This document shows positions 30,549 to 62,902 of a stretch of 64,000 bases of DNA, piece after piece. A model generated the notes under the pieces. It did no database searches. It was not told the DNA's origin and was given only the letters and a program-made list of their open reading frames with translations. The first letter of the stretch is position 1. Every line of letters begins with the position of its first letter. The translations under genes and the position numbers were made by a program. The stretch comes from a virus, in the IMG/VR virus record IMGVR_UViG_3300006802_000078, positions 27,626-91,625 of that record; one strand, written 5' to 3'.

Positions 30549-30567
30549 CCGCGCTGGTGCGGCTACT
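30544..30567. terminator. bidirectional hairpin at convergent gene ends
   Basis: AGTAGCCGC, a 6-nt loop, GCGGCTACT. The left arm holds the TAG stop of the scaffold gene and the right arm the TAG stop (CTA on this strand) of the portal gene. Thus a single 9-bp stem serves both converging transcripts. Confidence 0.6.
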
Positions 30568-35785: not shown

Positions 35786-35802
35786 GGGGGCCTTCGGCCC
35801 CC
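35786..35802 (+). terminator. UUCG-tetraloop hairpin after the capsid gene
   Basis: GGGGGC-CTTCGG-CCCCC starts 5 bp after the capsid stop. The stable C(UUCG)G loop suggests an mRNA-stabilising or attenuating hairpin; without a T run, read-through to the next gene is likely. Confidence 0.5.
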
Positions 35803-35860
35803 CATCCCCCCGGACTCCGTTCACCCCCTTCTGGTCCTTCTCCCTCGCGGAGCTACTCCG

Positions 35861-36394: not shown

Positions 36395-36417
36395 TCCGCC
36401 TTCGGTGAGAGGGCAGG

Positions 36418-36458
36418 GAGCCTCCCGGTGTAGCAGCCGGGGGGCTTCTTCTATTTCT
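36418..36458 (+). terminator. rho-independent terminator of the capsid unit
   Basis: An 11-bp stem (GAGCCTCCCGG against CCGGGGGGCTT, with two G-U pairs), an 8-nt loop, and a T-rich tail CTTCTTCTATTTCT. It is the best classic terminator in the window. Confidence 0.7.
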
Positions 36459-36505
36459 GGTAGACCCGCTGCGCGCGGTGATAGGCTGGGCCATCGGAGG
36501 CAGAG

Positions 36506-38026: not shown

Positions 38027-38037
38027 GGAAGCATCCG

Positions 38038-38535: not shown

Positions 38536-38538
38536 CGG

Positions 38539-42212: not shown

Positions 42213-42227
42213 GGGAGGTGCTGCGCG

Positions 42228-43078: not shown

Positions 43079-43690
43079 ATGCCTAACAACCTCGACACCA
43101 AGCTCGTCTCGGGCATGCAGAACGCCGGCCAGGCCATGGGGGACAACCCCGACCTGACGGGGCAGATCACCGGGCTCACCACCAAGGCGATCTACTCGGC
43201 GCTCGACCCGAACGCGAGGTCTGCCCGCGCCGCCCGGCGCAGCATGCGCCTGCGGCTCGACCGCGGTGCGGGCGCGCTTGGGCTCGATCGGGGACAGCGC
43301 ATGGCCATGAGCGAGGACGCCATCCGCGCGGCCCAAGCGGCCCAGGCGCCGACCGTGGACGAGATCCAGCGGGCGGGGGCGGCCAAGGGGGGCGGGCTCG
43401 GTTCGGGGGCGGCGCAGCAGGCGGTGAACACTGCGACGCTTCAGGCGGCGGCTCAGGGCGGGGAAGCCGCGAGCCAAGCCAACGTCGAGAGCCAACGGCT
43501 CGCCGAGGCGAACTACAACCGCTACTACGACATCATCAACAACCAGGCCATCCGCGGCGCCGACCAGGCGCAGGAGGCGGGCTACGTGACAGGCAAGGCC
43601 GTGAGCACCGTCATCCGCAGCTACGCTGGGGGTGGCCTCGATCCTGCCAGCGCCCAGCAGCTGATGGGCGTCGCCGGCGGCGTAGCCTGA
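43079..43690 (+). CDS. internal virion protein, small (T7 gp14-like position)
   Basis: Encodes 203 residues, helical, Gln/Ala-rich in the middle (GSGAAQQAVNTATLQAAAQGGEAASQANVESQRLAEANYNRYYDII), as in T7-type internal core protein gp14 and relatives. First of three successive internal-protein-like genes. Likely ejected into the host envelope at infection (known for the family, inferred here). No ribosome binding site; see the -10 at 43067. Confidence 0.5.
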   Translation: MPNNLDTKLVSGMQNAGQAMGDNPDLTGQITGLTTKAIYSALDPNARSARAARRSMRLRLDRGAGALGLDRGQRMAMSEDAIRAAQAAQAPTVDEIQRAGAAKGGGLGSGAAQQAVNTATLQAAAQGGEAASQANVESQRLAEANYNRYYDIINNQAIRGADQAQEAGYVTGKAVSTVIRSYAGGGLDPASAQQLMGVAGGVA

Positions 43691-43713: not shown

Positions 43714-46700
43714 ATGGCAACCGGAAGCGGAAGCAGCAGCAGCCGAGGGTCTCGGGCAATGACGGCGTACGACAAGCGGGAGGCGGCGTACTCGCCCTCC
43801 TACCTGCCTGGGTACGACCAGCTCATGACCCCGCTGGACCCAGCCAAGCCGTACGGCACCTACGCCCAGCGCATGCTCGGGCTGGGCACGATGGTGCGCG
43901 CGTCGGCCCCCCCGGGGCAGGAGGACGAGGCCGCCAAGATCGAGGCCGCGCTGCTCCGTACCTACCGCGAGCTCTACCACGAGCAGCGGGTGTGGGACAC
44001 GGAGATGGCGAAGCGCTTCAGCGCCGAGCGCATCAACATCCTGAGCTCGCAGACCCAGATGCTGGGGAACTACCTGCAGCTCGAGAGCACCATCATCAGC
44101 GAGGGGGCGCAGAACAGCCGGAACGCGCTTCAGGTCTACGGCAGCCTGCAGGAGAACCTCGCGAACAACATGCGCGAGCTGGCGCAGATGTCGACCATGT
44201 ACGCGTCCGACATCGTCGCGCAGGTGGCAGAGGCCGCGCGCCAGGCCAGCGACGACGGGGGCATGAGGCGCCTCGCCGCCTTCAACGAGTTCACCCGGCT
44301 CATGACCGAGACGCGGGAGGGCAACGTCCGAGGCCTGCCGCTGTGGAACACCTGGAACCAGCTCAACGACGAGTACCGCTTCGATGAGATCATCGACGGT
44401 ACCGACGCGTCGGTGCAGCTGGAGCCGTCCCAGCGTGATGCCATGCGGAACATCCGCACCATGGCGAAGTCGGCGAAGTCCTCGGTGGACGCTGCCACGG
44501 TCGATGTCGACGAGCAGATGTCCCGGCTGAAGCTGATCGCGCAGCAGATGGCGGGCGGCGCCGTGTCCCCCGAATACGAGCAGGCGGTCCACGACACCAT
44601 CAAGCAGATCCAGGATCTCGCCGTCGCCACGACCGGGGTGGAGCCCTCGGTCGCTTCGATGGAGGTCGGGGAGTACCTGCGCCAGAACGCGGGTTGGCGC
44701 CGCACCGAGGACATGCTGGGCTACCTGGCCGACCGGGTCAAGGGGGGCGGGAGCGGCGCGGCCGGGGTCGGCAAGGCGGACAAGGTGCAGCCGGAGCTGC
44801 AGCTCATGGCCGCGGCGATGGCGTCCCCCCAGTTCCAGGAGTGGGCCGCCGACCAGGGCTACAAGCGGCTGGGACGCGCGTGGCGGGACGAGGAGGGCCA
44901 GCTCCACTACATCCCGGCCAAGCAGGACCGCATCGCCGTGCTCGACTTCGTGCGCGAGCAGTGGCGGCATGGAGCCGACGGCTACCGCGTGGTCCCGCGT
45001 GGGACCGGCGAGATCATCACCCTGACGGTGAACGAGCCCCCGACCCCCGAGGCGGTCGAGGCGGTGCGCCAGCTCGATGGGCGCTTCGCGATGGTGAACG
45101 GGTCCTACATGACCCCGGACGCGGTGAAGGAGGCCCGAGAGGGACTGCGGCGCGAGGCCATGCGGCAGCTCGACACGATGGAGAGCAAGACCGGTGGTAC
45201 GCGGCTGTTCTTCGCCAGCTCCGCGGGGCAGCAGCTCGCGTGGTACGACGGCAAGATCTACCGCATGGATCAGATCGAGGGGGGGTTCCACCTGGTGCCG
45301 CTGGCGGACGGCAAGGGGGAGGCAGCTCCGATGCCCCAAGGGCTCCGGTGGGTCCCCATCAAGCAGAAGAACGGCCGTCCGGTGGCCAGCGGAGATCTGC
45401 CCACGCTCGAGATCGGCTACGGCACTGTGGCGCCCGGCACCGAGGCGGTGTCTCTCGACGACATCCGCGCCATCGACGCGGCCAAGCTCAAGCTGAGCCG
45501 CGGGGTGGGCGACGAAGACCTGGCCGCGCTGGGGATCAGCTTCACCGACCGGCCGCCGAAGGGGCGGAGCTACCAGGTCACGGGGGAGCGCCTGATGAAG
45601 GAGGCGTCCGACCCCGCCGGCTCCGTTCGGATCCGGGGTGAGGGCGCGAGCGGTGTCATGATCGACGAGAACGGCGTCGAGCACAACTACGGCCCGGGGG
45701 TGATGCGCTTCGAGGCGGGTCGCTACGAGGTGTCCGACGTGCACCGGGCGCGGGCCGATCGGGGCTTCGCCTCGGCGTACTACCAGCGGGCGAGTGCCCG
45801 CGCGACCCAGACCGGGCGCGACATCGTCAACCGCGACGCGCGGGACTCGGCGGAGTACGCCGCGCAGATGTCGGCGGAGGCCGCTGCGGTCGAGCCCGGT
45901 GAGACCCTGGAGGAGGCAGCCGACCGCGAGCTGGCGATCCAGTCGGCGAAGTTCAAGCGGGGCCAGCTCCAGGCCGACATCGAGCGGCTGACGCAGGAGG
46001 AGGAGCGGCTGGCGAGCATGGAGGGGGTCGAGTCGCAGGAACAGGCGGACGCCAACGCGGTGGCGGCGCAGCGTGCGCGAGATCGACGCACGGCGCTGGA
46101 GCAGGAGCTCATCGACACTGGCGCCTTGGTGGCGAAGGCCGAGGTGCAGCAGGACCCCAACGTCGTTCGGGTCAACGCGGAAGCGCGCGACATCAAGAAG
46201 CGAGCGATGGACGCCGAGATCCTGGCTCAGGATGCGGAGTCCGCTGCGAGCGAGGCGGAGGCTCGTGCAGCGCAGCTGCGGGAGGGCCTCACACAGCCGG
46301 AGGCGGGGGCTGCGCCGGGCCGAGGGGGGCGAGAGGGGAGTGACCCCGCGTCCCGCGCTGCGGGCGAGGCGTCTGCCAGGGCGGCCGCGCTGCGCGAGGC
46401 GGCGACGGCGGCGCGGGCGACGGCGGACCGCACGAAGCGGGAGTACGTCGCCAAGCGCGATGCCGCCGCCGCCTTCGAGCGGGTGAAGCTCAGCCAGAAG
46501 GGCTACGGCGCGCTCCGCGAGGAGGACATCCAGTTCGCCCAGCAGGAGGCCCAGATCGCCAAGGAGGGGGAGGGTGCGCCCCCGGAGCCCGAGCGCGGTC
46601 CGGCCGCGGCGGCGGGGTACGCCGCTGGTCGCGCGGCCGCTGGGCGGGAGGGGCGTGGCCCCGAGGGAGCGAAGGAGGACGTCGTTGGCCGCACCGGCCC

Positions 46701-47133
46701 GGAGGACAAGCGGGAGCCCGGCAAGGCCGCGGCGGCCGCTTCGAGCGAGGCCGCCGACTACGAAGCCGACATGAAGCGGCAGGAGAAGCAGAAGGAGGAG
46801 ACCCGCGGGGATGTGAAGCCGCGGCAGTACGCTCACCCTGGCGAGGTGATGGCACCGGCGGTTGCGGCTGCGCCGGCGGCTGCGGCTGCGCCAGCAGCAC
46901 CGAGGGCAGCGATCGGTCCGAAGAACCGCCGGGCCATCCTCGATGAGCGCCAGCGGGTCGTCACCGAGCAGGCGATGCGCAGCGGGCGGGGTGCGGCGGC
47001 GATGCGCGGCGCCGGAGGCAGGGCCGACCGGGGCAGCCTGCTCCGGGGCGAGCCTGAGCTGGCCCCCTCCGTCCCCAAGATCCCCGTACTGGCGGAGCTC
47101 GACGACAACAAGTTGGTCGATCTACCCGACTGA
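43714..47133 (+). CDS. internal virion protein, large (1139 aa)
   Basis: Encodes 1139 residues. N-terminal 370 residues helical (AKRFSAERINILSSQTQMLGNYLQLE; ELAQMSTMYASDIVAQVAEAARQASDDG), a beta-containing middle, and from residue 700 a long coiled-coil (FKRGQLQADIERLTQEEERLASMEG; AEILAQDAESAASEAEARAAQLRE) followed by an Ala/Pro/Glu-rich tail. Layout fits a podovirus ejection protein of the gp15/gp16 kind. No lysozyme or transglycosylase motif was seen. AAGGGGGAGCG precedes the ATG. Confidence 0.55.
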   Translation: MATGSGSSSSRGSRAMTAYDKREAAYSPSYLPGYDQLMTPLDPAKPYGTYAQRMLGLGTMVRASAPPGQEDEAAKIEAALLRTYRELYHEQRVWDTEMAKRFSAERINILSSQTQMLGNYLQLESTIISEGAQNSRNALQVYGSLQENLANNMRELAQMSTMYASDIVAQVAEAARQASDDGGMRRLAAFNEFTRLMTETREGNVRGLPLWNTWNQLNDEYRFDEIIDGTDASVQLEPSQRDAMRNIRTMAKSAKSSVDAATVDVDEQMSRLKLIAQQMAGGAVSPEYEQAVHDTIKQIQDLAVATTGVEPSVASMEVGEYLRQNAGWRRTEDMLGYLADRVKGGGSGAAGVGKADKVQPELQLMAAAMASPQFQEWAADQGYKRLGRAWRDEEGQLHYIPAKQDRIAVLDFVREQWRHGADGYRVVPRGTGEIITLTVNEPPTPEAVEAVRQLDGRFAMVNGSYMTPDAVKEAREGLRREAMRQLDTMESKTGGTRLFFASSAGQQLAWYDGKIYRMDQIEGGFHLVPLADGKGEAAPMPQGLRWVPIKQKNGRPVASGDLPTLEIGYGTVAPGTEAVSLDDIRAIDAAKLKLSRGVGDEDLAALGISFTDRPPKGRSYQVTGERLMKEASDPAGSVRIRGEGASGVMIDENGVEHNYGPGVMRFEAGRYEVSDVHRARADRGFASAYYQRASARATQTGRDIVNRDARDSAEYAAQMSAEAAAVEPGETLEEAADRELAIQSAKFKRGQLQADIERLTQEEERLASMEGVESQEQADANAVAAQRARDRRTALEQELIDTGALVAKAEVQQDPNVVRVNAEARDIKKRAMDAEILAQDAESAASEAEARAAQLREGLTQPEAGAAPGRGGREGSDPASRAAGEASARAAALREAATAARATADRTKREYVAKRDAAAAFERVKLSQKGYGALREEDIQFAQQEAQIAKEGEGAPPEPERGPAAAAGYAAGRAAAGREGRGPEGAKEDVVGRTGPEDKREPGKAAAAASSEAADYEADMKRQEKQKEETRGDVKPRQYAHPGEVMAPAVAAAPAAAAAPAAPRAAIGPKNRRAILDERQRVVTEQAMRSGRGAAAMRGAGGRADRGSLLRGEPELAPSVPKIPVLAELDDNKLVDLPD

Positions 47134-47152: not shown

Positions 47153-47617
47153 ATGGCAATCATCCGAGAAGACGGCAGCCAAGGCCGCTATGTGCAGCGT
47201 GCGGTTCCCCGTACTGCGGCGGAGGCGCCTACGCCCGTCGAGGAAGGCGAAGCCGGAGGGGGATCGGGCAGCGAGCCCGCTGTGAAGTCGGCCAGCGAGG
47301 CGGCCCAGACTACCTCCGAAGCTGCACAGGCGAAGGCGGCCGCGGCCGCGGCGGCTGCGAAGAAGAAGCAGACGACGGGGGGGCGCGCCGCGGCGCCGTG
47401 GGACGACGAGGCCATCGCGGCCGCGCGGCGGCGGATCGCCTACGAGAACTCCATGACGGGGAACCGCCGAGGGGGCACGATTCATGTTCGCAGGGGGTGG
47501 CGCGCTGCGAGGAAGGGGCTGTCCGCGGACCACACCTACAACACCCTGGGCCCCAAGGGCAACGTGATGCCAGAGCTGGGCCCTACTGAGAAGAGGAAAG
47601 AGGAGCGCGAGGAGTAG
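47153..47617 (+). CDS. hypothetical virion-associated protein
   Basis: Encodes 154 residues. Low-complexity N-terminal two-thirds (Ala, Glu, Lys) and a basic C-terminus (ARRRIAYENSMTGNRRGGTIHVRRGWRAARKG). AAGGAGG before ATG 47153 fixes the start. Lies between the two large internal-protein genes, so a DNA-binding or linker role in the core is possible. Confidence 0.62.
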   Translation: MAIIREDGSQGRYVQRAVPRTAAEAPTPVEEGEAGGGSGSEPAVKSASEAAQTTSEAAQAKAAAAAAAAKKKQTTGGRAAAPWDDEAIAAARRRIAYENSMTGNRRGGTIHVRRGWRAARKGLSADHTYNTLGPKGNVMPELGPTEKRKEEREE

Positions 47618-47653: not shown

Positions 47654-50600
47654 ATGCCGACCCCCACTCCCACGCCCGACAAGCTGACCGAAGAAGACCT
47701 GGCTCCGTTCGGGGATCTCTTCGGTCCACCCCCCGCTGCCCCTCCGGGCACGAAGAAGCTGCCGGCCACGAGCGCCGGCGGGCCAGTGATGGTGGACGAC
47801 GCCCACCTCAAGGACGTCAACCCGAAGGTACCGGAGCCGAAGGCGAAGGAGCCGAAGGCGAAGGCCGCGGAGCCGGCGCCGAAGGCGAAGGCCGCGGAGC
47901 CGGCGCCGAAGGCGAAGGCCGCGGAGCCGGCGCCGAAGGCCCCGGAGCCGAAGCCCGCGGAGCCCGCGCCGAAGCCCGCGGAGCCCCCGAAGGCGAAGGC
48001 CGCGGAGCAGCTGGAGTCGGCCGAGGAGACGCTGCCCCCCACCTCCCGCCCGCTGCCCCCCACCGACGAGGTGGCGGCTGCGCGCGCCGCGCTGGAGCCG
48101 CTGAAGCAGAAGGCCACCGAGGAGCGCGTCGCCGCCACTGCTGCGGACCAGCGCAGCCAGGCCGACGCGTTGGAGCTGCGCCGCTTGCTGGACGGTGCGG
48201 TCATGCTCTACGCCCCGTACAGGAGCGCGGTGGAGCGGGAGCAGGCGGCCGCCACTCCAGAGATGGGGATGCCTATGCCCTCCCTGCTGTCCGGCGGGGC
48301 GGCGCTCCGGTCGGCAATGGCGCTGGGCTTCGCCGCCGCCGCGCGCACGGGAGACCCGAAGGTCTACAAGGGCTTCGAGGCCGCCGCCGTGCTGAAGCAC
48401 ATCGGTCGGATGAAGCGCGAGGCCGAGGCGGGCGGTGGCAGCGCGCCCTACATGAGCCCGAGCGAGTACTGGGCAGCGGCCCGCGCGTCCGGTGTTCCGC
48501 TGGAGCAGATGCTCCGCGAGATCGTGATCGACAACAAGCGCGTCGACGACGTCATCGACGACGCTGTCTCTCGCAGCCAGGACCCTCGCGTCAAGGCGAT
48601 CCTGCTGCGGGCGAAGGCGCAAGGCGCCGGGCAGCAGCAGCAGCGCAGCGCGATCGACAAGGTCGTCGACGTCGCCAAGGCCCCGCTGGGCGTGCTCGCT
48701 CCAGGACCGTCTGAGGCGAGCAAGGCGGAGGCCGCAGCGAAGAGCCAGGCAGTGCGGGCCGAGGCTGCGGCGAAGGCAGGGCAGCTGGAGCGGGCCGCTG
48801 CCATCGAGGCGACGGGGAGCGTGCGCCAGCGGGCCAAGATCGCCGACGCTGGGATCCGCGAGATGTACGCCGCGATGAGCGGGGACGCCGATGAGCTCGC
48901 CGACGCCAGCCGGGAACGCGAGGAGGCGGAAGCCAAGTACCGGCGGCTCCACGGGGGCCGCATGGCGGCGTCCCTGCGCGAGACGACGCTGCGGGATTGG
49001 ACCGGCACCCAGGCCACCTCTGGCGTCATGGGCGTCTCGGAGCGGGATCCGGACGTCGACTTCGACAGCGCCCAGGCTCAGGCGACGGCCATCACGCTGC
49101 TGCGGGAGATGATGCCTCCCGAGGCGCGAGACCTGAGCGACGACGAGCTGGTGATGGCTGCGCCTCAGAAGTCCCCGCTGGTGCAGAGCTTCGTCCAGGC
49201 CACGCGCTTCGCCGGGGGTCACCGTGGGTGGATCGAGCAGCGCGCCGACGCGATCCAGCGCGCCAAGTCTCAGGCGCTGACGCGAGAGGGGAAGAACCCC
49301 GCCGAGGCATACGGGCCCGGGATGCGGGCGGATGCCGTCGCAGAGGCTGTGAGGGAGGCGACGGTCTTCCGCGTCGTGGGGCTGTGGGGGGGCCCGCTGA
49401 TCATCAACCTGGCCCAGCTCACCGGAGAGCAGGCGCAGCGTGGAGAGGAGATCTCCCTGGCTGACGCCATGAAGGCGCAGGTCGAAATCGTCGGGCTCGA
49501 CCGCAACGGCGTGGTCATCTACCGCCAGGAGTCGGTGCCGTCCTGGCTGTTCGGGCTGGCCGACATGCCGATCCAGGCGGCCATGGCCTACTACGAGGTG
49601 GCGAAGGAGAACGTCACGGGCGAGCGAGACAACGCCGACGCGGAGCGGAACTGGTACGACATCGGCCAGAAGTTCCGCAGCAACGTCGCTCGCCGGCACG
49701 GCTTGCTCGATCTCGCCATCGAGACGGGGGTGTTCACCGACGAGAACACGGCAGTGATCCCGGTCGACCAGGACAGCCCGTGGCATCCGTACGCCAAGGC
49801 CACGGAGCAGCTCGCCCTGGGCGGGGCTGCGGTCGTCGCGACGATGCTGGCTCCCGACATGTTCATGGTCGCGGGGGGCGTCGGGGGGTCTGTGCGCGGG
49901 GCGATGGCGACCCGCCGCGCGGCCAAGGTCGCGGAGGGGCTGAAGTCCGCGTCGACGCTGCTGCGCGAGGCCCACGCTCTGGGCGAGGCGGGCAAGATCG
50001 ACGAGGCGGTGGCTGCGCTGCGCAAGGCCGAGGCCATCGAAGTGGCGCTGCGGAAGTCCAACCCGGAGATCATGCGTGCGGTCGACCGCGCTGACGTGGC
50101 GGCCTACGAGAAGGCCACCGCCGACGGCGGCGCGGTGGCGGATCTCCGCACCCGGAAGGAAGCGGGCGGTGTCCTGCCTGGTGCGCTGGGCAAGGAGGCC
50201 CAGACCCTGCACCCCGGCATGCGGGTCGACGCGCTGAAGCAGGGGGAGGCGGTGGATGACGCCGCCGACTTCCCTCACCTGTTCAACTACGCCAACCCCC
50301 TGCAGGACGCGGCCAAGCTCAGCCCCGAAGACCTCGCCCAGGCAGGGCGTCGCCACGCGGCGGCGAAGGTGGTGGGCGAGGAGGGCAACAAGCTCCGAGC
50401 CAGCGCTGCCAAGATCAAGGACCCTGCGGGCCGGGAGGAAGTGCGGCTCTTCATCGAGGAGCAGCTCGCCATCATCCAGGACAAGGCGGCGCACGGGATC
50501 GACAAGACGACGATGCAGAAGGAGCTGCGTGACGCCGTCGCGGCCCGGTTCGTCGGCGACGACAACAAGCCGCTGCGGGAGGGGCTCTACAAGAAGCTCA

Positions 50601-53600
50601 CCGGCTTGGGGGGGCGCGCGGTCGAGGCGGCTGAGAAGGCCGACCCGCTGGACCCTGTGCGGGCCATCCTGGGCAACATCGCGTCGCGCGCCGAGGGGCA
50701 CGAGGTCATGGCGAACGCCTCGAAGAAGGCGCTGGGCATGACCACGAACCTGCTGAAGGAGGGCAAGTACGCGTCGGAGGCCAGCATCCTGCGTGCCATC
50801 GCCCAGGACGCCGCCGACGCAGCAGGCATCGAGGATGCCACCGCGCGTGCAGTCTTCATCGAGAAGCGGATCAAGCAGTGGCAGAAGGCGCTGTCGACGG
50901 GCAAGCCGATCGATGTTGTCGGGCGGCGGATCACCATCGACGACGTGGTGCGGGAAGACACCCTGGTGCGCCAGCGGGTGCGCGACGGGCTCACCCCACA
51001 GCAGGCCATGGACGAGTGGCGCGCGAAGGTGCCCGGCAAGGTCGAGGCCGCGGCTGCGCCGAAGGGGCCGGAAGGGTCGAAGGGGCCGGAAGGGTCGAAG
51101 GAAAGCGGAGAGGACTACGCCGAGCGCCCGACCGTGGTGGAGAAGAAGCCCGCTGCCGCTCCCGACCCCGATGTGGAACGCCCGACCGAAGTGGACCGGG
51201 ACACCGTGGTGGTGCCTGCGGCGGACTCAACCCAGGGCCGCGCCCGCGCTGCTGCCACGCCGGAGTGGACTCCGGAGCGGACCCAAGCGGTCGCTCCCGA
51301 CGACGACAGCACCGCGGCTCGCATCGCCGGGCTGAAGCCGAAGGAGCCGACGGACGCCGCCTTGCCTCGGTGGCAGCGGGTCTCGCCTGCTCGAGGGCGG
51401 GGCGAAGCTGCGATGAAGGGGGATGGCCCCCAGGCGTGGGCTCCGGGCAAGGAGCCGGCGGAGCCGGCGCCTGCTGCGCCAGCGGCTGCGGCTGCGCCAG
51501 CAGCGCCGAAGGCGGCGCCGAAGGCGGCACCCCCCGCCGAGCCCCCGCCCGCGGCAGCGGCAGCGGCGGCAGCTGCGCCTGCCTCCACTCCGGCGCCGAA
51601 GGCCGCGCCCGCGGCAGTGGCGCCCGCGCCGAAGCGCGAGCGACCCCCCACGCGGAAGGAGAAGATCCAGGCATCGGCGAAGAAGCTGATGGACGCTTCG
51701 GTGGCGTCGCCCACGAACGAGGGCATCGCGTCCGCGGACGACTTCAACGAGGCCATGGCCATGGTCCTCAAGGATCTCGGCTACGACGACGACGTCATCC
51801 AGGCGGTCGCCCACGGCAAGACCGATGTCGTCGTCTCCGGTAAGATCAAGAGCCCCCGCGCGCTGCGGAACCAGGTGCGGGACCTGCTGGATGAGGCATA
51901 CGCTGCCGCTGGCATCGAGCGGCCCCCCCGGCTGGTGCAGACCGCGCAGGGCGACTGGCTGGAGTACGCCGACGGCACCCGCCTGAACTGGCTGCCGAAG
52001 GAGGAGCGAGCTGCCGCTCTGGCGGGGCTGAGCGAGGATGCCGAGGAAGTCGCCGACGTGGCGGACGTGGCCGAGGAAGTCGCGGACGTGGCCGAGGAAG
52101 TCGCGGACGTGGCCGAGGATGCGCCCAAGGTGGCGGCCGCCCCCGAGCCCGCTGCGGCGCCGGAGCCGCTGCCGGAGCCGCTGCCGAAGGCGGAGGCGGC
52201 GCCTGCTGCGCCTGCTGCGCCTGCGCCTGCCGCGCCTGCTGCGCCTGCTCCCCCCCGGGAGAAGATGACGGTGCCGGAAGAGTGGGCCGCGGAGCAGCTG
52301 GGCTTGGAGCACATCGACGACTTCGACGCGAAGAGCGCCACTCCGGAGGACTTGTCGGGTCTGGGCGGAGCCTACAACCAAGCGAAGGAGATCGGCGACG
52401 CCGAGACCGCGCTCTACCTCGAAGGGCTGATCATCGAGGCGGTGGACAAGATCGCCGACATGGCCGACCCGGGTGACATGGGCGGTCTGCTCCTGAAGGT
52501 CGACAGCGACAAGCTCGTGCGCAGCCTGCGCTTCTACGCTGACCACAGCGTGACCGACCCCAAGAAGCTGCAGAACGTAGCCGATGCCATCGAGGGGTAT
52601 CGAGGGTTCAAGCACCAGTCCTCCCCCGAGGTCGCCGCGGCCATGGCCGACGCCCGTCGCGCGTCGAAGGCGGCTGCGGCTGCGCCCCAGCAGGTCGGCC
52701 TCCCCCTCCCTGCGCCTGCGGCTGCGCCGGCAGCGGCAGCAGCGTCGCGCCCCCACATCGCCCAGGTCGGTGCGGCCGAGGCGAAGAAGATCATCAACAG
52801 CGCCTCCCTCGACCAGCTCGATGAGCTGTTCCACGAGGAGGCGTCGCGCGGCACCAAGGCTCGCAAGGGGGTGGTGTCGGCCATCGACCAGCGCCGGGCG
52901 GCGCTGCAGGCCGAGGCCGGGCTGCCTGTGACGGAGTCCCCCGTGCTCGAAGCCCCGAAGCCGGTGAAGGAGCCGAAGCGGGCGGCGCCGCCGAAGCCGG
53001 TGTTCACCGAGCAGCAGCAGAACTTCCTCGACAAGGTGCGGCAGGGTCGGGCCACGTCGCGGGCGATGGAGGAAGAAAGACTCAAGGCGAAGAACGCGGG
53101 CGACGTCGCGTACCTCAAGGCAATGATCGAGGCGGAGGCCAACGTGCCGGGGAGGGCCTCGGTCAAGCGGAAGCTCGACAACGACCTCGACGTGGTGCAG
53201 ACCCGCAAGGCGCTGAAGTTCGACGCTGCGCTGCTCTCCGAGGCGCCGGACGCCGTGAGCCCCCGCCGGGCCCAGGCCTCGGCGGCGCGGGAGCTCGACG
53301 ACCTGCTCGACCAGGCGAGCGACGCCGCGGCCCAGGTGCTGACCCCTGAGGCCAACCGCGGGCGGACCGGCAACGTGATGCGGAGCGCGCTGGAGTCCAC
53401 GCTGGCCACCCGCGGCACGGGCGGGGTCGACGCGGTCGAGCTGGCCAGCCGGGTCGCGCCCGAGGTCCAGGCGGTGGCGACGGCAGAGGAGGAGGCCATC
53501 CGCGCCCGGCGGCTGCGCTTCGACGCGTCCGCCATGCGGGGGCGGCTGGTCCCCGGCTCGAAGAAGCGGGTGGTCGCGGCCCAGCGGGCGCTCGAGGATG

Positions 53601-56600
53601 CCGAGGCTGCGCTGCGCCAGGCCCACGCGCGGCTGGAGGTCGCGCTCGCCACGGGAGTGCGGGAGCAGCTCGGCGCCGAGTGGCGGGCGCTGCCGATCCG
53701 GCCGGAGGCGACGACCCGGGGCCTGGAGGCGCTGGCTCGGCGGATCCTGATGGCGGAGGGCGAGGGTGAGGGTGCCTTCCCCCTGCTCCACCTGGTGACC
53801 CAGCTCGCGATGGACGCGGGCCAGGGGGGCGACATCGACTTCCTCCGGCTGCGCATGGGCGGGACCGCTGATGCAGCTGCGGGCGACTACAAGCCGATCC
53901 GCAAGGTCATCGCCATCGGGGACGAGGCGATTGCCCGCCTGCGGGCAGGTGACAGCATGGGCCTGCGCGTGGCGGCGCATGAGATCGGCCACGCTGTGGC
54001 GGCGCTGCTCGACGAGGAGCAGGTGGGCAAGCTCGCGGAGCAGTACGCCCGGGACGTGCGGCGGGCCGCCCAGGGGGGAGGCGGCCGCACCGGCCGCGCC
54101 ATGGCCATGGACCTGATGGCTGGCGGGGACAAGGCGCCGCTGGCGCGGTACCGCTACCTCTCCTTCGACGAGTGGGTGGCAGAGAAGTACGCCGACTACG
54201 CCATGCGGCAGGTGAGCTTCAACCGCCTGTCCCCGTTCTGGCGGGGCATGGTGATGAGCGTCGATCGGATCACCACCCGGATCGGCCACACCCTGGGCTG
54301 GGACTCGGTCGAGATCTTCATCCAGCAGGCCCTGCGTGATCCACTCCGCACTGCGACATCGGCCACGCTCGAAGAGCGGATGCAGGCGAAGGCGGTCATC
54401 GAGGGTGGGCGGAACATCGCCAGCGAAGCCCGGCTGCAGGTGCTCTCGGAGTACGGCGCGATGGCGGAGGAGGAGGCGACGGCGTCCGCGCGCCTCGATG
54501 CGGCCGCGCGCCTGGTGGACGAAGCCGCCAGCGAAGCTGAGCCCTCGCTCAAGATGTTCCTGGGCGAGCGTGGGGCGGAGACGCTGGACGAAGCCGACGC
54601 GAGCCGCTGGGGCAGACACGCGGACGACCCGATGATGATCGAGCTGGAGCGCGCGCGGCAGATGCTGGATGACGGTACCAGCGCCGAGGAGGTGTGGAAG
54701 AACACCGGCTGGCGGCGGGGCCCCGACAACGCATGGCGCTTCGAGATCGACGATAGCGGCGCCTACCTGAAGCGCGACGCGTTCCAGCGGGCGAAGACGG
54801 AGAAGGCGAGCCCGGGGAGCAAGGCCGGGGTCAAGACGCGGCTGGGCGACCTGATACGCCACCCCCGCCTGTTCGAGGCGTACCCCGAGCTCAAGGACGT
54901 CGTCGTCGTCATGGGCGAGACCGACAACCCGGCGCTGCTGGGGCAGTTCGTCACCGACGCGTTCGGTGGCGTGGGCGCCATCCACGTCTTCAACCCGAAG
55001 CGGCAGACCCACGAGCAGATCCTGAAGACCATCCTGCACGAGGTGCAGCACAACATCCAGGAGATCGAGGGCTTCGCCGAGGGCGGCGGCTGGGAGATCA
55101 GCCCGGAGGGTGAGGCGCTGGTCCAGCGGATCTTCGACAAGGCGCAGGCGCTGCGCGACCGCCGCCAGGAGTGGCACATCACGGACGAGCTCCTGATGGC
55201 CCAGGCGAAGGACAAGGTGTACCGGCGGACCTACGGAGAGGTCGAGGCCCGCAACGTCGAGTCCCGCATGGGGCTGGATGAGCGCGGTCGCGCGGCGAAG
55301 TTCCCGACCAAGACGCAGGACGTGGCCGACAGCAACGCCATCATCGTGTGGAACGGTGAGGTGATGGGGTCGCCGAAGGCGTCGCGGGCGCCGGTGGCGG
55401 CGACTGCGGAAGCTGCGGGCGCTCAGGTGCTCAGCAACGCCGGCGCGACTCCGGAGCGCGAGGTCGCGCGCATCGCCGAGGAGCTCCGGCGGGAGCAGCC
55501 ATCGATCGCTGAGGTGGTCGACCGGGCGGCTGTTCGCGGTGCTTCGACTGACTCCGACACGCGCTACAAGGTCGGTTTGCAGCGTCCCGTCGAGGGTCTT
55601 CGCGGGTTCGAAAGCGGTGGCAAGTTCCATCGTTTTGTCGCTGAGCACGGGGAAGAAGGCGCGCTTCAACTGGTGCGCGCCAGCGCGGTGGAGGCAGTGG
55701 CTGACGGCGCCGCTCCAGAGCTGGTCGCAGCCCTGGTTGAGCTCCGCACCCGCGCGATCCGCGACCCGAGCTACGTGGAAGTCGTTCCGCCGGGGCGGAC
55801 CTACCCACGGTGGAACTCTGGCGGATCGGCGCTGCCGACGTGTGAGCACCGCCTGCGCGATCTTGAGCGAGATCTGGCGCAGCTGGCTTCGAGCCTGAAC
55901 GATGGCGTGTCTCAGTGGGGTACGCTGAACGCCGAGCAGGCGCGCGAAGCACTGGCAGCTATTGCAGGCGCCACGCTGGACGATCTGGTCGCTGGCCGTG
56001 TGTCACCGCGGTTCGCGAGTGTGTCTAGTGTGGAGTGGCGCATCGTGGCGATCGAGAGGTCAGCACAGCGTCTCCAGGAGAGCGTGCGCGAAGCATCGGA
56101 GCTTCTTGGGTTCGACGTACCGATGCCGCACCCGACGGGGCACGCGTACTTTGGCAAAGAAGCGTTCTACGGGAGGCTGGCGGATGGCGCAAGCCAGGGT
56201 AGCTACGAGGCCGCTGCGAACTGGATCAAGCGGAAGACGCCTCCGCCCAAGCAGAGAGCCGGCTTCGACACCTTCGGCACCCACGCCGACGTCGACACAT
56301 CCAGGGCCGCCGTGGTGCCTGAGAGCCTGGACCCGCAGCGGAAGATCGGGAGCGAGATTCTCGGTGACTTCGAGCGGAAGCCGGAGGCGCCAGAGGGTAC
56401 GGGCACGCCTCGCGACATCGACACCAAGCGGCTGCCCCCGGAGAAGGAGCGGCAGGCGGCTCGTGGGCGCAGCGACATGCGGCGGCGCATCTACGACGAG
56501 CAGGAGAAGCTCTGGAAGGCGTGGACCAAGGACAGCCGTGTCGCGACCATCACCGACGCGGACTACGCCACGGTGAAGGCGTTCCTGGCCATGGTCGGCA

Positions 56601-59600
56601 GCGAGCGTCTGAAGAGCGTCGGGCTACTCATCGTCCCTGAGATCCCCTCCTGGCGAGGCACCATCCTGGGGCAGTACAACTTCGCGAGTGACGTGGTCAC
56701 GATCTCGCATGCGGCGACTTCGTCGGGGCGGTTCACGGACACGACCATCCATGAGCTCTGGCATGCGCTGAGCCGCTACATCGGCAACGACCGCGTCGAT
56801 GGGCTCTACAAGGAGTTCATTCGGGAGCGTGAGGCCTACAAGGCGGCGCACCCGGCGGAGTTCGACCTGCGGGGCAACCTGAAGGAGATCCACCACACGC
56901 CGACCCACTCTGGGTACCGCTACTCGTCCATCGACGAGTGGGTCGTCGAGAAGATGAAGGACTTGAGCATCTCGGACGCGACCCGCAAGGCGCAGGCCGA
57001 TCTGGTGCGGCGTGGCATGCTCCGCACGACTGAGGGCGGGCAGCCCCCTCCGCCGGTGGTCGAGACCCTGCGCGGCCTGCGCGACCTTGTCACGAGCCAC
57101 GTCGGCCACATGGTCTCCCGCTGGTCGAACGACCAGGTGTTCAAGACCTACGACGAGTTCATGACGGGAACCATCACCGAGATGGCCCGACGGGACACGC
57201 TGGGCCACGAGGTGGAGCGTCTCGGCCTCGCCACGCAGGAGGTGCAGCAGACGCTGCGCGACCGTGCTCGTGCCTTCGTCGAGAGCCTCATGGACCGGCT
57301 GCGGGGAACGACCAAGCCGGACATGCAGCTCGATCAGGAGGCGGCAAGCTACGTTGGCGACGTCATCAAGACCTCGCCATCGCGGCAGGCGCTTGAAGAG
57401 CGCGCCGGGCTGGAGCAGCTGCGGCGGGTGCTGGAGCAGCAGGTAGCAGTCGATGAAGGCGGGAGGGCGACCGAGCAGTCGCTCCGCCTGCCCTCCGCCA
57501 CCCTCGCCGGCGTGCCCCCGACTTCGGGCGAGCCGGGGGTCACGCGCGTCCCGTACGGCCGCAGCCGGACCCTCGGAACCACGTCGACGTCCGAGCTGCT
57601 GGCCACCTCGGACGACGCCGAGTCCGGCATGCTGAGCCACGCGCTCCGGCGCGTCGTGCTCATGCTGGGGGACAACGAGCGCAGGGCCATGCAGCTCTTC
57701 CCACCCCACCTGCAGCAGGTGCTGCTGGCGGGCAACCGCAAGGTCAGCGCCGCGGTCAACGACATGCAGGTCATCCTGTCCGAGGCCGACTTCGGCAAGG
57801 TGGTCGACTACATCGACGGCAAGCAGGTGGAGCTGCGGGGCGCCGGGGTGGCGCCGTCCAGCGGCAGGCGCGCCGTCCGTGTCGGGCTTCGGCCGGGGGA
57901 GGCGGCCAGCTCCTCGCCCATCGAAGACCTGCGCTTCGCCATCAACACCTGGATTGAGACCCAGCCGCCCGCGGTCCAGGCCGGGCTGCGCGCCTTCGCC
58001 GAAGGGGAGTCCATCAACAGCCCCCAGGTGGGCAACGCGCTCGTCGACGCCCTGAGCCGCCGGTCGAACCGCGCGCCGGACGTCATCACCGCGTTGGTCT
58101 ACTCGACGCTGCCCCCCGGGGACAACGTGCCCGCGTTCGAGCGGGCCGCCGCGGGCCACCTGGTCGTGGAGGATCTCCACCGCTACCCATCGGTGTGGGC
58201 TCCGATGCGCGCCATCCTGCGCGACTCGCTGACGCCGCCGGCGGACGGATCGTCCCGCCAGCTGCTGCACGACCTCGCGAACCTGGAAGCGAAGGGCAAG
58301 CACGCTCGCCCCTCCCGTCGGAGCATCCGCGTCGGTCGCGCGGCCACGGTCATCGCCGGCTACTCCGGCGCGGCCCACGCGTTCGACCTGTGGCGGGACA
58401 TGGGCATCGGCATCGATCCTGCCCTGGCCCTGGCTGCCACCACCCTCGCTCGGGGGGGCAGCCTCAACACGCTGCCGCCGGATGTGCTGAAGCGCGTCGC
58501 CGCGCTGGCTGTGGAGGCAGGAGCTCCAGACGCGCGCGCGCTCGCCGAGCGGGTGCTGCAGCGCACCGGGACGGCCAAGGGTGCGGCTCACTGGAAGTCT
58601 CCAGTCGGCGTTGACCCGGCCTCGGTCGAGTACGCCCCCCACGTCAAGAAGGCGCGGGCCGAGGCTGAGGCTGCCGCAGAGGCGCTGACCGGCGTGGCGC
58701 GGCGGGAGGCCATCCAGGCCAGCGTGGCGGCGGCGTCTGAGGGGGAGACCTTCTTCCCCGAAGCCGCGGTCCGCATGATCGACGCTGCGCTTGACCGCGC
58801 CATCGACGAGGCCGGGATCCTGAAGGAGCACGGCAAGCTCGGGAAGGGCGAGATCGCTGCGGACATGGCTCTTGATGGCCTGCGCGCGCTGAAGGCAGCC
58901 GTGACCAAGGGCGTGTTCTTCCCCCGCAACGCCATGATCACCATGGATCAGTTCGACGCGGCGCGACAGACGGCCATCGGGTACGGCTACCGCCAGGCGG
59001 CGCGGAACGCGGTGCGGCAGTCGCTGCCCTCGCTGGTGGCGCTGGCGCCGGGCGGCGGCATCGCGCTCCGCACCAGTGCGGGGCAGCGGGTGCTGGCTGC
59101 GGCGCAGAACGTGGGCGATGCCTCCGCCAAGGGGATTGGATACCTGCTCGGCATCGACAATGGCGAGGTCGTGGTGCTGCGCGCTCCGACCAAGGAGGGG
59201 GCGACGAAGCTGCAGGTGGCGGCGTCCGCTGCGCGCGACTTCCTCGGGGTCGAAGACATCATCAACGGCACCGACGCGGTGTTCGCCATCGGCGACAGCG
59301 TGGCCCGAGGCTCGGACCTGCAGCAGATCGCGGTGGAGACCGGTGTCATCCAGAAGTTCGCTTCGATGGGAACCGAGCGGACCTTCTCTGGAGGGCGCCG
59401 GCTCAAGGGGCTGGAGCTGTCGCCGAGGGAGGCCCACCTGCTGGGTGACGACGTCGCGCGGCAGTGGGATGACTTCGTGGAGGATCTGCATGCGGTCGTC
59501 GAGCAGCCCGCAGGCTGGGCCAGCGACAAGGTCAAGGGCTGGGTGGCGGGCACCCAGGGCATCGTGGAGGACATGAGCGTCCGCAGCCGCGTCGGGCTCT

Positions 59601-60997
59601 GGCTCGGGCTCATCGAGGAGGGGTACGACCCTCGCATCGCGGGGCAGATCGTCAACAAGATCCTCTTCGACTACGCCACCAGCGTGACCGCGGCTGAGAG
59701 GAACAACCTCTTCCTCGGGATCCTGTTCCCCTTCTGGGCCTACCAGAAGAACATGAACCGCTTCGCCCTGGACATGGCGGCGCTGCCCGAGACGGCCTAT
59801 CGCTGGCACGCGCTGCGCACCCTGGAGCAGGACGGCGGGCAGCTGCTGACCGAGGTCATCTACGACATGACCCACGACGCGTACGGCGTCGATGAGAGCA
59901 GGCTCGATGAGCGCGACCGCGCTGCCTACGCCGTGCTCCGCTCCCGCCTCGAGCTCGGCTGGGGTCCGATCGCCGAGCTCGCACCCGACACCCGCCAAGC
60001 GTTGGAGACGATACTGGGGGGCCACGGGCCGATCGAGGAGTGGCCCCCCGAGCTGCGCTACGCGATTGAGAACGGGTACGGCTCACCCTCGCGGATGCCC
60101 AACGACCTGCGCCAGGCGGTCGGGCTGCTGTTCCGCGGCCCCGATGGGAGGCTCACCTCGCGAGACGGTGATCAGCTGATCCTGTCTGGGATGGCTCAGG
60201 TCCATGTGCGGAGGCCGCCCGCGATGACGGGCGAGGCGGTCGACGAGTACCCCGTGCGGGGAGGGAGGAAGAGCTTCTACCGGGACCGCCCCGGCGTCGA
60301 TGTGCTGTCCGCAGTGAAGGCAGACACCAGGGCGTACCTGAGCCAGATGTCGGCGGCGGACCGCTACCTGTTCATGCTGCCGCCGAACGGGGTCGACGAC
60401 GCGGTGAAGATGATGGCGCTGGTACCGATGGCCCTCGCGCTCATCCCGCTCACCCTCCAGGAGGCGCTCGTCGACGAGGACGGCAGCTTCTCCGACATGA
60501 ACGTCGAGACGAAGCGGTCGCTGCTGCTCCGCGCCGTGTCTGAGAGCATCTCCCCCTCCCGCGCGCTGGGATGGAGCGACGTCGGCCACATCATCACGGG
60601 CTCGGAGGACATCGGGTCCTGGCGCAGTGTCTCGCCTCTGACGGGCATGGTCATGGAGAAGCTGGGGCTGCCCGTCAGCATCTCGATGGAGGAGCGCGAC
60701 TCCGAGGGGAACCTGAAGAAGGAGCGGAAGTACTCGCTGCCCCCTGGTGCGATGTCGCTCGTCTACCAGGGGATCGGAGGAACCAGCCTCGTGTCCTCGG
60801 CCGACGCGCTCTACGCCGCAACAAAGTGGGCGCTCGACGAGCCGAGCGGAACGGCGATGGAGCAGGCCGAAGGCGCAGACGTGGCGTTCTTCATCGCCAT
60901 CGCGAAGATGCTCGGCGTGTCCGTCGACGAGTACTCCCCGGAGCAGACCGCGGGAAGACTGGCGCGAGACACCAAGCCACCTCCGGCGGGGCGGTAG
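47654..60997 (+). CDS. giant polyvalent ejection protein with three zinc-protease motifs
   Basis: A single frame of 4447 residues. Visible parts in order: low-complexity N-terminus with KAKAAEPAP three times (68-94); hydrophobic segment (about 720-750); Ala/Pro linker (1270-1330); Glu/Asp/Val repeat (about 1463-1490); metalloprotease 1 with HEIGH at 2109-2113 and DEWVAEK (E2177) as likely third ligand; metalloprotease 2 with HEVQH at 2462-2466 and GEVEARN about 65 later, of the polyvalent-protein type; a compositionally odd segment (about 2586-2869); metalloprotease 3 with HELWH at 3033-3037 and DEWVVEK (E3099); an LPD38-like domain (about 3970-4055: GLIEEGYDPRIAG, ILFDYATSVTAAERNN, ILFPFWAYQKNMNRFALDM); and a hydrophobic patch near 4240-4270. 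Position after internal virion proteins suggests injection with the genome. Domain names come from pattern memory. Confidence 0.75.
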   Translation: MPTPTPTPDKLTEEDLAPFGDLFGPPPAAPPGTKKLPATSAGGPVMVDDAHLKDVNPKVPEPKAKEPKAKAAEPAPKAKAAEPAPKAKAAEPAPKAPEPKPAEPAPKPAEPPKAKAAEQLESAEETLPPTSRPLPPTDEVAAARAALEPLKQKATEERVAATAADQRSQADALELRRLLDGAVMLYAPYRSAVEREQAAATPEMGMPMPSLLSGGAALRSAMALGFAAAARTGDPKVYKGFEAAAVLKHIGRMKREAEAGGGSAPYMSPSEYWAAARASGVPLEQMLREIVIDNKRVDDVIDDAVSRSQDPRVKAILLRAKAQGAGQQQQRSAIDKVVDVAKAPLGVLAPGPSEASKAEAAAKSQAVRAEAAAKAGQLERAAAIEATGSVRQRAKIADAGIREMYAAMSGDADELADASREREEAEAKYRRLHGGRMAASLRETTLRDWTGTQATSGVMGVSERDPDVDFDSAQAQATAITLLREMMPPEARDLSDDELVMAAPQKSPLVQSFVQATRFAGGHRGWIEQRADAIQRAKSQALTREGKNPAEAYGPGMRADAVAEAVREATVFRVVGLWGGPLIINLAQLTGEQAQRGEEISLADAMKAQVEIVGLDRNGVVIYRQESVPSWLFGLADMPIQAAMAYYEVAKENVTGERDNADAERNWYDIGQKFRSNVARRHGLLDLAIETGVFTDENTAVIPVDQDSPWHPYAKATEQLALGGAAVVATMLAPDMFMVAGGVGGSVRGAMATRRAAKVAEGLKSASTLLREAHALGEAGKIDEAVAALRKAEAIEVALRKSNPEIMRAVDRADVAAYEKATADGGAVADLRTRKEAGGVLPGALGKEAQTLHPGMRVDALKQGEAVDDAADFPHLFNYANPLQDAAKLSPEDLAQAGRRHAAAKVVGEEGNKLRASAAKIKDPAGREEVRLFIEEQLAIIQDKAAHGIDKTTMQKELRDAVAARFVGDDNKPLREGLYKKLTGLGGRAVEAAEKADPLDPVRAILGNIASRAEGHEVMANASKKALGMTTNLLKEGKYASEASILRAIAQDAADAAGIEDATARAVFIEKRIKQWQKALSTGKPIDVVGRRITIDDVVREDTLVRQRVRDGLTPQQAMDEWRAKVPGKVEAAAAPKGPEGSKGPEGSKESGEDYAERPTVVEKKPAAAPDPDVERPTEVDRDTVVVPAADSTQGRARAAATPEWTPERTQAVAPDDDSTAARIAGLKPKEPTDAALPRWQRVSPARGRGEAAMKGDGPQAWAPGKEPAEPAPAAPAAAAAPAAPKAAPKAAPPAEPPPAAAAAAAAAPASTPAPKAAPAAVAPAPKRERPPTRKEKIQASAKKLMDASVASPTNEGIASADDFNEAMAMVLKDLGYDDDVIQAVAHGKTDVVVSGKIKSPRALRNQVRDLLDEAYAAAGIERPPRLVQTAQGDWLEYADGTRLNWLPKEERAAALAGLSEDAEEVADVADVAEEVADVAEEVADVAEDAPKVAAAPEPAAAPEPLPEPLPKAEAAPAAPAAPAPAAPAAPAPPREKMTVPEEWAAEQLGLEHIDDFDAKSATPEDLSGLGGAYNQAKEIGDAETALYLEGLIIEAVDKIADMADPGDMGGLLLKVDSDKLVRSLRFYADHSVTDPKKLQNVADAIEGYRGFKHQSSPEVAAAMADARRASKAAAAAPQQVGLPLPAPAAAPAAAAASRPHIAQVGAAEAKKIINSASLDQLDELFHEEASRGTKARKGVVSAIDQRRAALQAEAGLPVTESPVLEAPKPVKEPKRAAPPKPVFTEQQQNFLDKVRQGRATSRAMEEERLKAKNAGDVAYLKAMIEAEANVPGRASVKRKLDNDLDVVQTRKALKFDAALLSEAPDAVSPRRAQASAARELDDLLDQASDAAAQVLTPEANRGRTGNVMRSALESTLATRGTGGVDAVELASRVAPEVQAVATAEEEAIRARRLRFDASAMRGRLVPGSKKRVVAAQRALEDAEAALRQAHARLEVALATGVREQLGAEWRALPIRPEATTRGLEALARRILMAEGEGEGAFPLLHLVTQLAMDAGQGGDIDFLRLRMGGTADAAAGDYKPIRKVIAIGDEAIARLRAGDSMGLRVAAHEIGHAVAALLDEEQVGKLAEQYARDVRRAAQGGGGRTGRAMAMDLMAGGDKAPLARYRYLSFDEWVAEKYADYAMRQVSFNRLSPFWRGMVMSVDRITTRIGHTLGWDSVEIFIQQALRDPLRTATSATLEERMQAKAVIEGGRNIASEARLQVLSEYGAMAEEEATASARLDAAARLVDEAASEAEPSLKMFLGERGAETLDEADASRWGRHADDPMMIELERARQMLDDGTSAEEVWKNTGWRRGPDNAWRFEIDDSGAYLKRDAFQRAKTEKASPGSKAGVKTRLGDLIRHPRLFEAYPELKDVVVVMGETDNPALLGQFVTDAFGGVGAIHVFNPKRQTHEQILKTILHEVQHNIQEIEGFAEGGGWEISPEGEALVQRIFDKAQALRDRRQEWHITDELLMAQAKDKVYRRTYGEVEARNVESRMGLDERGRAAKFPTKTQDVADSNAIIVWNGEVMGSPKASRAPVAATAEAAGAQVLSNAGATPEREVARIAEELRREQPSIAEVVDRAAVRGASTDSDTRYKVGLQRPVEGLRGFESGGKFHRFVAEHGEEGALQLVRASAVEAVADGAAPELVAALVELRTRAIRDPSYVEVVPPGRTYPRWNSGGSALPTCEHRLRDLERDLAQLASSLNDGVSQWGTLNAEQAREALAAIAGATLDDLVAGRVSPRFASVSSVEWRIVAIERSAQRLQESVREASELLGFDVPMPHPTGHAYFGKEAFYGRLADGASQGSYEAAANWIKRKTPPPKQRAGFDTFGTHADVDTSRAAVVPESLDPQRKIGSEILGDFERKPEAPEGTGTPRDIDTKRLPPEKERQAARGRSDMRRRIYDEQEKLWKAWTKDSRVATITDADYATVKAFLAMVGSERLKSVGLLIVPEIPSWRGTILGQYNFASDVVTISHAATSSGRFTDTTIHELWHALSRYIGNDRVDGLYKEFIREREAYKAAHPAEFDLRGNLKEIHHTPTHSGYRYSSIDEWVVEKMKDLSISDATRKAQADLVRRGMLRTTEGGQPPPPVVETLRGLRDLVTSHVGHMVSRWSNDQVFKTYDEFMTGTITEMARRDTLGHEVERLGLATQEVQQTLRDRARAFVESLMDRLRGTTKPDMQLDQEAASYVGDVIKTSPSRQALEERAGLEQLRRVLEQQVAVDEGGRATEQSLRLPSATLAGVPPTSGEPGVTRVPYGRSRTLGTTSTSELLATSDDAESGMLSHALRRVVLMLGDNERRAMQLFPPHLQQVLLAGNRKVSAAVNDMQVILSEADFGKVVDYIDGKQVELRGAGVAPSSGRRAVRVGLRPGEAASSSPIEDLRFAINTWIETQPPAVQAGLRAFAEGESINSPQVGNALVDALSRRSNRAPDVITALVYSTLPPGDNVPAFERAAAGHLVVEDLHRYPSVWAPMRAILRDSLTPPADGSSRQLLHDLANLEAKGKHARPSRRSIRVGRAATVIAGYSGAAHAFDLWRDMGIGIDPALALAATTLARGGSLNTLPPDVLKRVAALAVEAGAPDARALAERVLQRTGTAKGAAHWKSPVGVDPASVEYAPHVKKARAEAEAAAEALTGVARREAIQASVAAASEGETFFPEAAVRMIDAALDRAIDEAGILKEHGKLGKGEIAADMALDGLRALKAAVTKGVFFPRNAMITMDQFDAARQTAIGYGYRQAARNAVRQSLPSLVALAPGGGIALRTSAGQRVLAAAQNVGDASAKGIGYLLGIDNGEVVVLRAPTKEGATKLQVAASAARDFLGVEDIINGTDAVFAIGDSVARGSDLQQIAVETGVIQKFASMGTERTFSGGRRLKGLELSPREAHLLGDDVARQWDDFVEDLHAVVEQPAGWASDKVKGWVAGTQGIVEDMSVRSRVGLWLGLIEEGYDPRIAGQIVNKILFDYATSVTAAERNNLFLGILFPFWAYQKNMNRFALDMAALPETAYRWHALRTLEQDGGQLLTEVIYDMTHDAYGVDESRLDERDRAAYAVLRSRLELGWGPIAELAPDTRQALETILGGHGPIEEWPPELRYAIENGYGSPSRMPNDLRQAVGLLFRGPDGRLTSRDGDQLILSGMAQVHVRRPPAMTGEAVDEYPVRGGRKSFYRDRPGVDVLSAVKADTRAYLSQMSAADRYLFMLPPNGVDDAVKMMALVPMALALIPLTLQEALVDEDGSFSDMNVETKRSLLLRAVSESISPSRALGWSDVGHIITGSEDIGSWRSVSPLTGMVMEKLGLPVSISMEERDSEGNLKKERKYSLPPGAMSLVYQGIGGTSLVSSADALYAATKWALDEPSGTAMEQAEGADVAFFIAIAKMLGVSVDEYSPEQTAGRLARDTKPPPAGR
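47855..47935 (+). repeat. 27-bp repeat, 3 exact copies
   Basis: Three identical 27-bp units in the N-terminal part of the giant gene, each coding KAKAAEPAP. Confidence 0.85.
52071..52112 (+). repeat. 21-bp repeat, 2 exact copies plus a partial
   Basis: Two identical 21-bp units code the Glu-Val-Ala-Asp-Val-Ala-Glu repeat, with degenerate copies on both sides. Confidence 0.75.
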
Positions 60998-62461: not shown

Positions 62462-62902
62462 ATGCCGGGCAAGACCAAGGCTGCATCCGCTGCCCCCGCC
62501 ACGCCGGTGGCGCCTGTCGCGCTGGCCCGCCCCATGCTCGACCCCGAGCGCGACTTCACCTACCACCCCCCCACCTCCGAGACTGGGCCGAAGTTCACCG
62601 CGCTCCGTGAGGCGGAGGTACAGGCATCGGACCGGGTGCACAACGGGACCACCAGCGGGGACTTCGAAGCCATCTCCCTCGCGACCATGGCGTTCGCCAA
62701 GGTGATCCTGGAGGTCGCCCCCGCCGGCCCGCGCCAGACCCTGGCCTACCGCAAGGTGGAGGCGGCCCGCATGCTGGCCAACGAGGCTGTGGTGCTCTAC
62801 CTCGAGCGCCGCATCGCGCCCGGGGCCAAGCTCCTCGACAAGGCGCTCACGGCATTGGTCGAGGCTCGCCACTGCGCGTCCGCCGCCGTCGCGCTGGCCT
62901 GA
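62462..62902 (+). CDS. hypothetical protein
   Basis: Encodes 146 residues; Ala/Pro-rich start, then all-helical (SGDFEAISLATMAFAKVILEVAP; RKVEAARMLANEAVVLYLERRIAP). ATG at 62462, five bases after the preceding stop. Unknown function. Confidence 0.65.
   Translation: MPGKTKAASAAPATPVAPVALARPMLDPERDFTYHPPTSETGPKFTALREAEVQASDRVHNGTTSGDFEAISLATMAFAKVILEVAPAGPRQTLAYRKVEAARMLANEAVVLYLERRIAPGAKLLDKALTALVEARHCASAAVALA

Follow-up and report, generated by a model that had tools for sequence, protein, structure and literature searches.

The window analyzed here is a stretch of 64,000 nucleotides that corresponds to positions 27626 to 91625 of an uncultivated virus record 91,625 bases long. It contains a giant ORF that follows a block of late genes (Table 1) and that, according to a sequence-only reading, encodes three HExxH metalloprotease motifs. 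These motifs, HEIGH at residue 2109, HEVQH at residue 2462 and HELWH at residue 3033, indeed lie in one uninterrupted frame, whose codon-usage score of 1645, obtained with a training set to which the frame itself belonged, is far above that of every other frame in the window. The composition of the protein predicts only 0.070 HExxH motifs, and the probability of three or more is 5e-5; chance occurrence is therefore rejected. A third zinc ligand had also been anticipated about 60-70 residues downstream of each motif. Candidates are present at this spacing in DEWVAEK (residues 2172-2178), GEVEARN (2528-2534) and DEWVVEK (3094-3100), and they are conserved in relatives. The three corresponding domains are termed Z1, Z2 and Z3.

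Table 1. Features of the giant ORF and of its neighborhood, in window coordinates
Feature	Position	Strand	Basis or remark
Portal/connector-like protein	30563..32377	-	phrog_332 E 2.4e-11; PF12236 E 1.3e-5, below cut-off
Terminase large subunit	32389..34563	-	phrog_2 E 1.2e-14; common to relatives
203-aa cysteine-free late protein, candidate third ejection protein	43079..43690	+	cysteine count
1139-aa cysteine-free late protein, candidate second ejection protein	43714..47133	+	cysteine count
154-aa cysteine-free ORF directly ahead of giant gene	47153..47617	+	cysteine count
Giant polyvalent ORF	47654..60997	+	4447 aa, ~476 kDa, 1 cysteine (residue 2730)
Ala/Pro/Glu/Lys-rich linker, residues 24-161	47723..48136	+	composition
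Ala/Pro/Glu/Lys-rich linker, residues 1234-1357	51353..51724	+	composition
Ala/Pro/Glu/Lys-rich linker, residues 1457-1566	52022..52351	+	composition
Z1 zincin-like domain, residues 2072-2187	53867..54214	+	match to HMM of Z3 rows; HEIGH 53978-53992, DEWVAEK 54167-54187
LPD23 domain, residues 2320-2372	54611..54769	+	Pfam PF18838, E 2.3e-16, 59.8 bits vs cut-off 27
Z2 LPD23-associated zincin-like domain, residues 2380-2590	54791..55423	+	homology, model; HEVQH 55037-55051, GEVEARN 55235-55255
Conserved linker motif AGFDTFG, residues 2869-2875, ahead of Z3	56258..56278	+	in 4/5 giants, single copy each
Z3 zincin-like domain, residues 2934-3189	56453..57220	+	identity to L005-L008, model; HELWH 56750-56764, DEWVVEK 56933-56953
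C-terminal conserved module, residues 3700-4255	58751..60418	+	L007 match, E 2e-30

An LPD38-like segment that had been proposed at residues 3970-4055 is rejected. The LPD38 profile (PF18857) matches nothing in the genome even at E<=10, and a profile-profile comparison (hhalign) yields a probability of 0.3%. As a positive control, the same PF18857 search detects LPD38 in three other giant polyvalent ORFs (E 6e-43 to 6e-33). The region is nonetheless conserved with one relative, L007. A virion RNA polymerase or other named enzyme was also looked for in the giant and not found; Pfam gives no match to a T7-like RNA polymerase domain in the chain, and the protein is not classed with the N4-type vRNAPs.

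The LPD23-Z2 unit has counterparts with 31-32% identity in F116, H66 and 8P, all of them Pseudomonas phages, and more than 480 relatives of the Z2 unit are present among the IMG/VR matches listed. In most Z2 relatives listed, a nearly invariant G-E-x-E-A-R is kept after a variable insert. Some records annotate the Z2 homologues of F116 and 8P as structural or PLxRFG proteins. Z2 is the common LPD23-zincin unit of F116-like phages. Two HExxH motifs occur in 41 of the 80 LPD23-zincin ORFs that were fetched, and three occur in 2 of the 80. The latter, L040 and L043, are giant LPD23 ORFs of 3589 and 3118 aa. Three zincins per chain are uncommon but known.

Z1 and Z3 are homologous to each other by pairwise blastp (E 3e-7), by an HMM that was built from Z3 rows alone and matches Z1 at an iE of 5.5e-8, and by hhalign (probability 95.5% over 151 columns). 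The eight-member Z1/Z3 alignment has an invariant H-E-x-x-H, Y-R, E-W-x-x-E and later D, with alignment positions E155, W156 and E159 identical in all eight rows. Alignment of the Z3 with the Z2 family is confined to the surroundings of the strands and HExxH (hhalign 69%, E 4e-5), which is the expectation for zincins. On this comparison, Z1 and Z3 are one family, gluzincin-like in character, and Z2 is another; the three separate peptidases of the sequence-only reading are thus not three unrelated domains. HExxH is accompanied by a conserved downstream ligand among the homologues in both the Z1/Z3 and the Z2 alignments, and this combination suggests an active zinc site.

The identity of Z1 to Z3 is about equal (26-31%) for all five giants, that is, for the present ORF and the four relatives described below. 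This near-equidistance implies that the split is older or that Z1 came from another chain, and a recent duplication of Z1 from Z3 inside the present phage is unlikely. At the sensitivities used, the Z1/Z3 family has no match in Pfam, NCBIfam, PHROG, PDB sequences or INPHARED. A Z3 profile likewise matches no PDB sequence, and a search of 50,697 phage records gives no Z3 relative up to an E of 1. A single-protein scan with Z1 produced no relatives. In a pattern-limited scan that covered 84,980 genomes of bacteria and archaea, only two remote Z3 relatives were detected. These are in an uncultured Legionella MAG and another bacterial MAG (L018, L019), and are possibly prophage-derived. Z1/Z3 thus appears to be an uncatalogued zincin family, which may equal one of the 12 clades in PMC5512222.

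Structure prediction of the motif regions bears out the presumed zincin cores in Z2, with high confidence, and in Z3, with moderate support, but the Z1 part of the Z1-Z2 model is of low confidence. The Z3 model, built from 8 sequences (mean pLDDT 63, about 64-88 in the core), consists in order of a helix, three strands, the HExxH helix and a long helix that begins with DEWVVEK. PMC5512222 gives this element order for the zincin core. The LPD23-Z2 model, with a pLDDT of about 90-97 over most of its length, has it too; in both models, the helix, three-stranded sheet, HExxH helix and ligand helix are present. Among solved folds, Foldseek ranks jannalysin first for Z3 (probability 0.97, E 0.036), and further matches are a mixture rich in zinc peptidases (selecase, SprT-type, PprI). 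Among the best 50 matches to viral models, polyvalent proteins, IrrE/SprT/M48-like peptidases and internal core proteins are frequent. Because no Z3 match falls below E 0.001, this fold support is consistent but moderate. Matches from a PDB fold search with the Z1-Z2 model were dominated by its low-confidence helical half. Thus, of the three zincin domains originally proposed for this polyvalent protein, Z2 and Z3 are upheld by both homology and predicted fold, which leaves hardly any doubt about a zincin fold in Z2 and almost as little about Z3, and Z1 very likely has this fold by virtue of its homology to Z3 only.

Four IMG/VR contigs from uncultivated phages carry giant ORFs (L005-L008) that share Z3 with the present one. 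Identity is 38-44% over the Z3 domain and 34-39% over longer stretches; the L006 and L008 ORFs run off their contig ends. The terminase is clearly common to the L006, L007 and L008 records, and weakly to the L005 record (E 4e-6). For the late genes at 34684-43025, the L006 and L007 records contain homologues in conserved order, the L008 record fewer of them and the L005 record weaker ones. The gene order terminase, portal, late-gene run, giant is common to records G002, G003 and G004, and weakly to G001. From this synteny, the giant ORFs of three of the four relatives clearly appear to occupy the same late-block slot. The T7-type connector-like portal (phrog_332, E 2e-11) makes the podovirus assignment of the sequence-only reading plausible.

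Beyond Z3, the giant shares with these relatives only the C-terminal module (with L007) and short stretches. Their remaining cargo includes an ADP-ribosyltransferase domain, ART-PolyVal, in L007 (E 1.3e-15) and a BECR-type nuclease, PBECR5, in L006 (E 1.4e-9), and both of these ORFs have additional HExxH motifs. As aligned, Z3 is the constant unit and the best conserved part in all five phages.

Elsewhere in the window, four codon-scored cysteine-free ORFs (29598-30548, 29086-29613, 26067-26840 and 21289-21924) have no Pfam match where searched, and some of them, close to the portal gene, may encode capsid or scaffold proteins. Pfam searches with ten further called window genes gave no match. 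Downstream of the giant, a 146-aa ORF (62462-62902, plus strand) resembles PF24729 (Acb2/Tad1 hairpin) at E 5.7e-5, with 23.7 bits against a cut-off of 27, and matches phrog_1454 at E 1.8e-7. Its product is a possible anti-CBASS nucleotide sponge.

The single cysteine of the giant is matched by 0/3400, 1/4225, 0/4227 and 0/2322 cysteines in the four relatives and by 0-4 cysteines per chain in 45 LPD23 giants that are 2000 aa or longer. At the rate of the present phage's late genes (30/3,864), the probability of at most one cysteine in 4447 residues is 3e-14. A comparable depletion is seen in the ejection proteins N4 gp50-52, T7 gp6.7/14/15/16 and P22 gp7/16/20, which together contain 2 cysteines in 7,952 residues. 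The remaining sampled proteins of T7, N4 and P22 contain 152 in 17,295 (0.88%), or 82 in 12,284 by hand count when the comparison is limited to the virion and packaging proteins of the sample; cysteine content serves here as a proxy, the compared sequences are related to one another, and cysteine is likewise missing from some capsid and scaffold proteins. The T7 proteins named are established as ejected, as are those of N4 and P22 (PMC12633501, PMC4992974). For N4-like vRNAPs, the absence of cysteine has been linked to passage through the tail and periplasm (PMC3715699, PMC2784036, PMC3915230). An extension of this argument to polyvalent proteins was not found stated in the open-access literature searched.

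Three consecutive cysteine-free ORFs lie between the late block and the giant, an arrangement that resembles the ejection-gene clusters of T7 and N4. In the relatives, the large ORFs just ahead of the giant have 0 or 1 cysteine. The sequence-only reading supposed that the giant is ejected with the DNA. Its place after the late block, the synteny and the near-absence of cysteine support this indirectly and make it very likely, and from the same evidence we infer its presence in virions.

The giant belongs to the phage large polyvalent proteins and probably acts as an ejection protein. It combines multiple polyvalent domains (LPD23 plus two zincin-type families), and its gene is in a late virion gene neighborhood, following late genes that, with the terminase and portal genes, keep their synteny in relatives. 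The ~476-kDa chain would be packed in the head, leave it together with the DNA as an unfolded thread free of cysteine that crosses tail and periplasm, and refold in or near the cytoplasm. Packaging and ejection would be carried by the linkers, the N-terminal region and the conserved C-terminal module, and the separate domains of the chain would act inside the cell afterwards. Z3 and the C-terminal module would form a constant core, with Z1 and LPD23-Z2 as swappable effector cargo. Z3, the constant unit of the phage group, most likely does a job that all of them need: it might process or arm the chain, or cleave one common host protein. Z1 and LPD23-Z2 fill the space that is held in relatives by an ADP-ribosyltransferase, a BECR-type nuclease and other HExxH motifs, and are best read as swappable host-directed effectors, an assignment that we favor by a modest degree for Z1 and Z2. 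HExxH domains are not necessarily proteases; that at least one of the three zincins is active as a protease is quite probable.

In a different reading, the zincins cut the giant into separate ejected proteins, at assembly or after entry, with the linkers and the AGFDTFG-type motif as cleavage sites. Self-processing has been proposed for such chains, and P1 DdrB is indeed processed before packaging (PMC5512222). However, the closest proven example with a HExxH domain of zincin-like type, N4 vRNAP, enters virions without processing, and plasmid TraC1/ArdC, in which zincin-like domains also occur, travel unprocessed as well (PMC5512222); the N4 example argues that a zincin-like domain alone does not imply cleavage before or during packaging. 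The long Ala/Pro/Glu/Lys linkers between domains and the single conserved motif ahead of Z3 would suit such cutting, and the motif is, speculatively, a candidate cleavage or docking site, but it is missing from L008, and one cutter would not need three zincins of two families. We regard this reading as doubtful. Slightly less likely again is a host-directed effector role for all three zincins, which would disable proteins of defence or of the envelope. The same-slot cargo of relatives, with its predicted host-modifying enzymes (ART, PBECR nuclease), varies as expected under an arms race, but Z3, retained by all five phages and best conserved, is more like a core function. That the HExxH domains are non-catalytic, as zinc-binding structural or autoinhibitory parts of an ejection protein, is the least likely alternative: it has a precedent in N4 vRNAP, whose HExxH-bearing C1 subdomain belongs to a large C-terminal region with an allosteric restraining effect on the polymerase (PMC12633501) and whose region with the HExxH domain is required for encapsidation (PMC5512222), but HExxH and a candidate third ligand are kept in every aligned Z1/Z3 relative, and HExxH occurs with G-E-x-E-A-R across most of the Z2 family.

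The substrate of the Z1/Z3 zincins could be a vulnerable point that hosts have in common, or else the giant chain. Polyvalent proteins are viewed as arsenals of enzymes for injection, although for most of them injection has been inferred. The cysteine test, anchored on proven ejection proteins, supports injection for the giant and for dozens of related giants. It is an even question whether phage proteins that pass the envelope together with DNA are generally marked by a near-absence of cysteine, a trait that the ejection proteins of T7, N4 and P22 would have in common with giant polyvalent proteins as a whole. Such a mark would identify injected cargo, including the three-zincin chain and its cysteine-free neighbors, from sequence alone, with Z3 as the fixed core of a swapped-cargo carrier, and the 2017 injection hypothesis for polyvalent proteins would gain a broad test.

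Phage large polyvalent proteins were described as a class in 2017 (Iyer et al., PMC5512222). Chains of this class have one to five zincin domains, with more than one in ~8% of zincin-bearing chains, and injection and host-protein cleavage have already been proposed for them (PMC5512222). The giant resembles these proteins in its multidomain chain, LPD23 domain, interspersed zincin-like domains and late virion block. F116 p60 (1649 aa), H66 and 8P (5145 aa) have the LPD23-zincin unit with HELQH and GEVEARN, and the F116 p60 and 8P chains carry two HExxH motifs and are, like the giant, near cysteine-free. In contrast to the giant, no Z1/Z3 family domain is found in the proteins of these three phages, and their remaining chain is without tblastn similarity to it. 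N4 vRNAP (gp50, 3500 aa) is similarly cysteine-free and is encoded beside two cysteine-free ejection proteins, but has a single HExxH (HELVH), whereas the giant has three HExxH domains and no Pfam-detected RNA polymerase domain. The minigluzincins (jannalysin, selecase), SprT and IrrE/PprI share the predicted core and HExxH helix with Z3, which, at 10-18% identity and a Foldseek E of at best 0.036, is not a member of these groups. The giant is at the large end of the polyvalent-protein size range, and adds an uncatalogued zincin family as conserved core.
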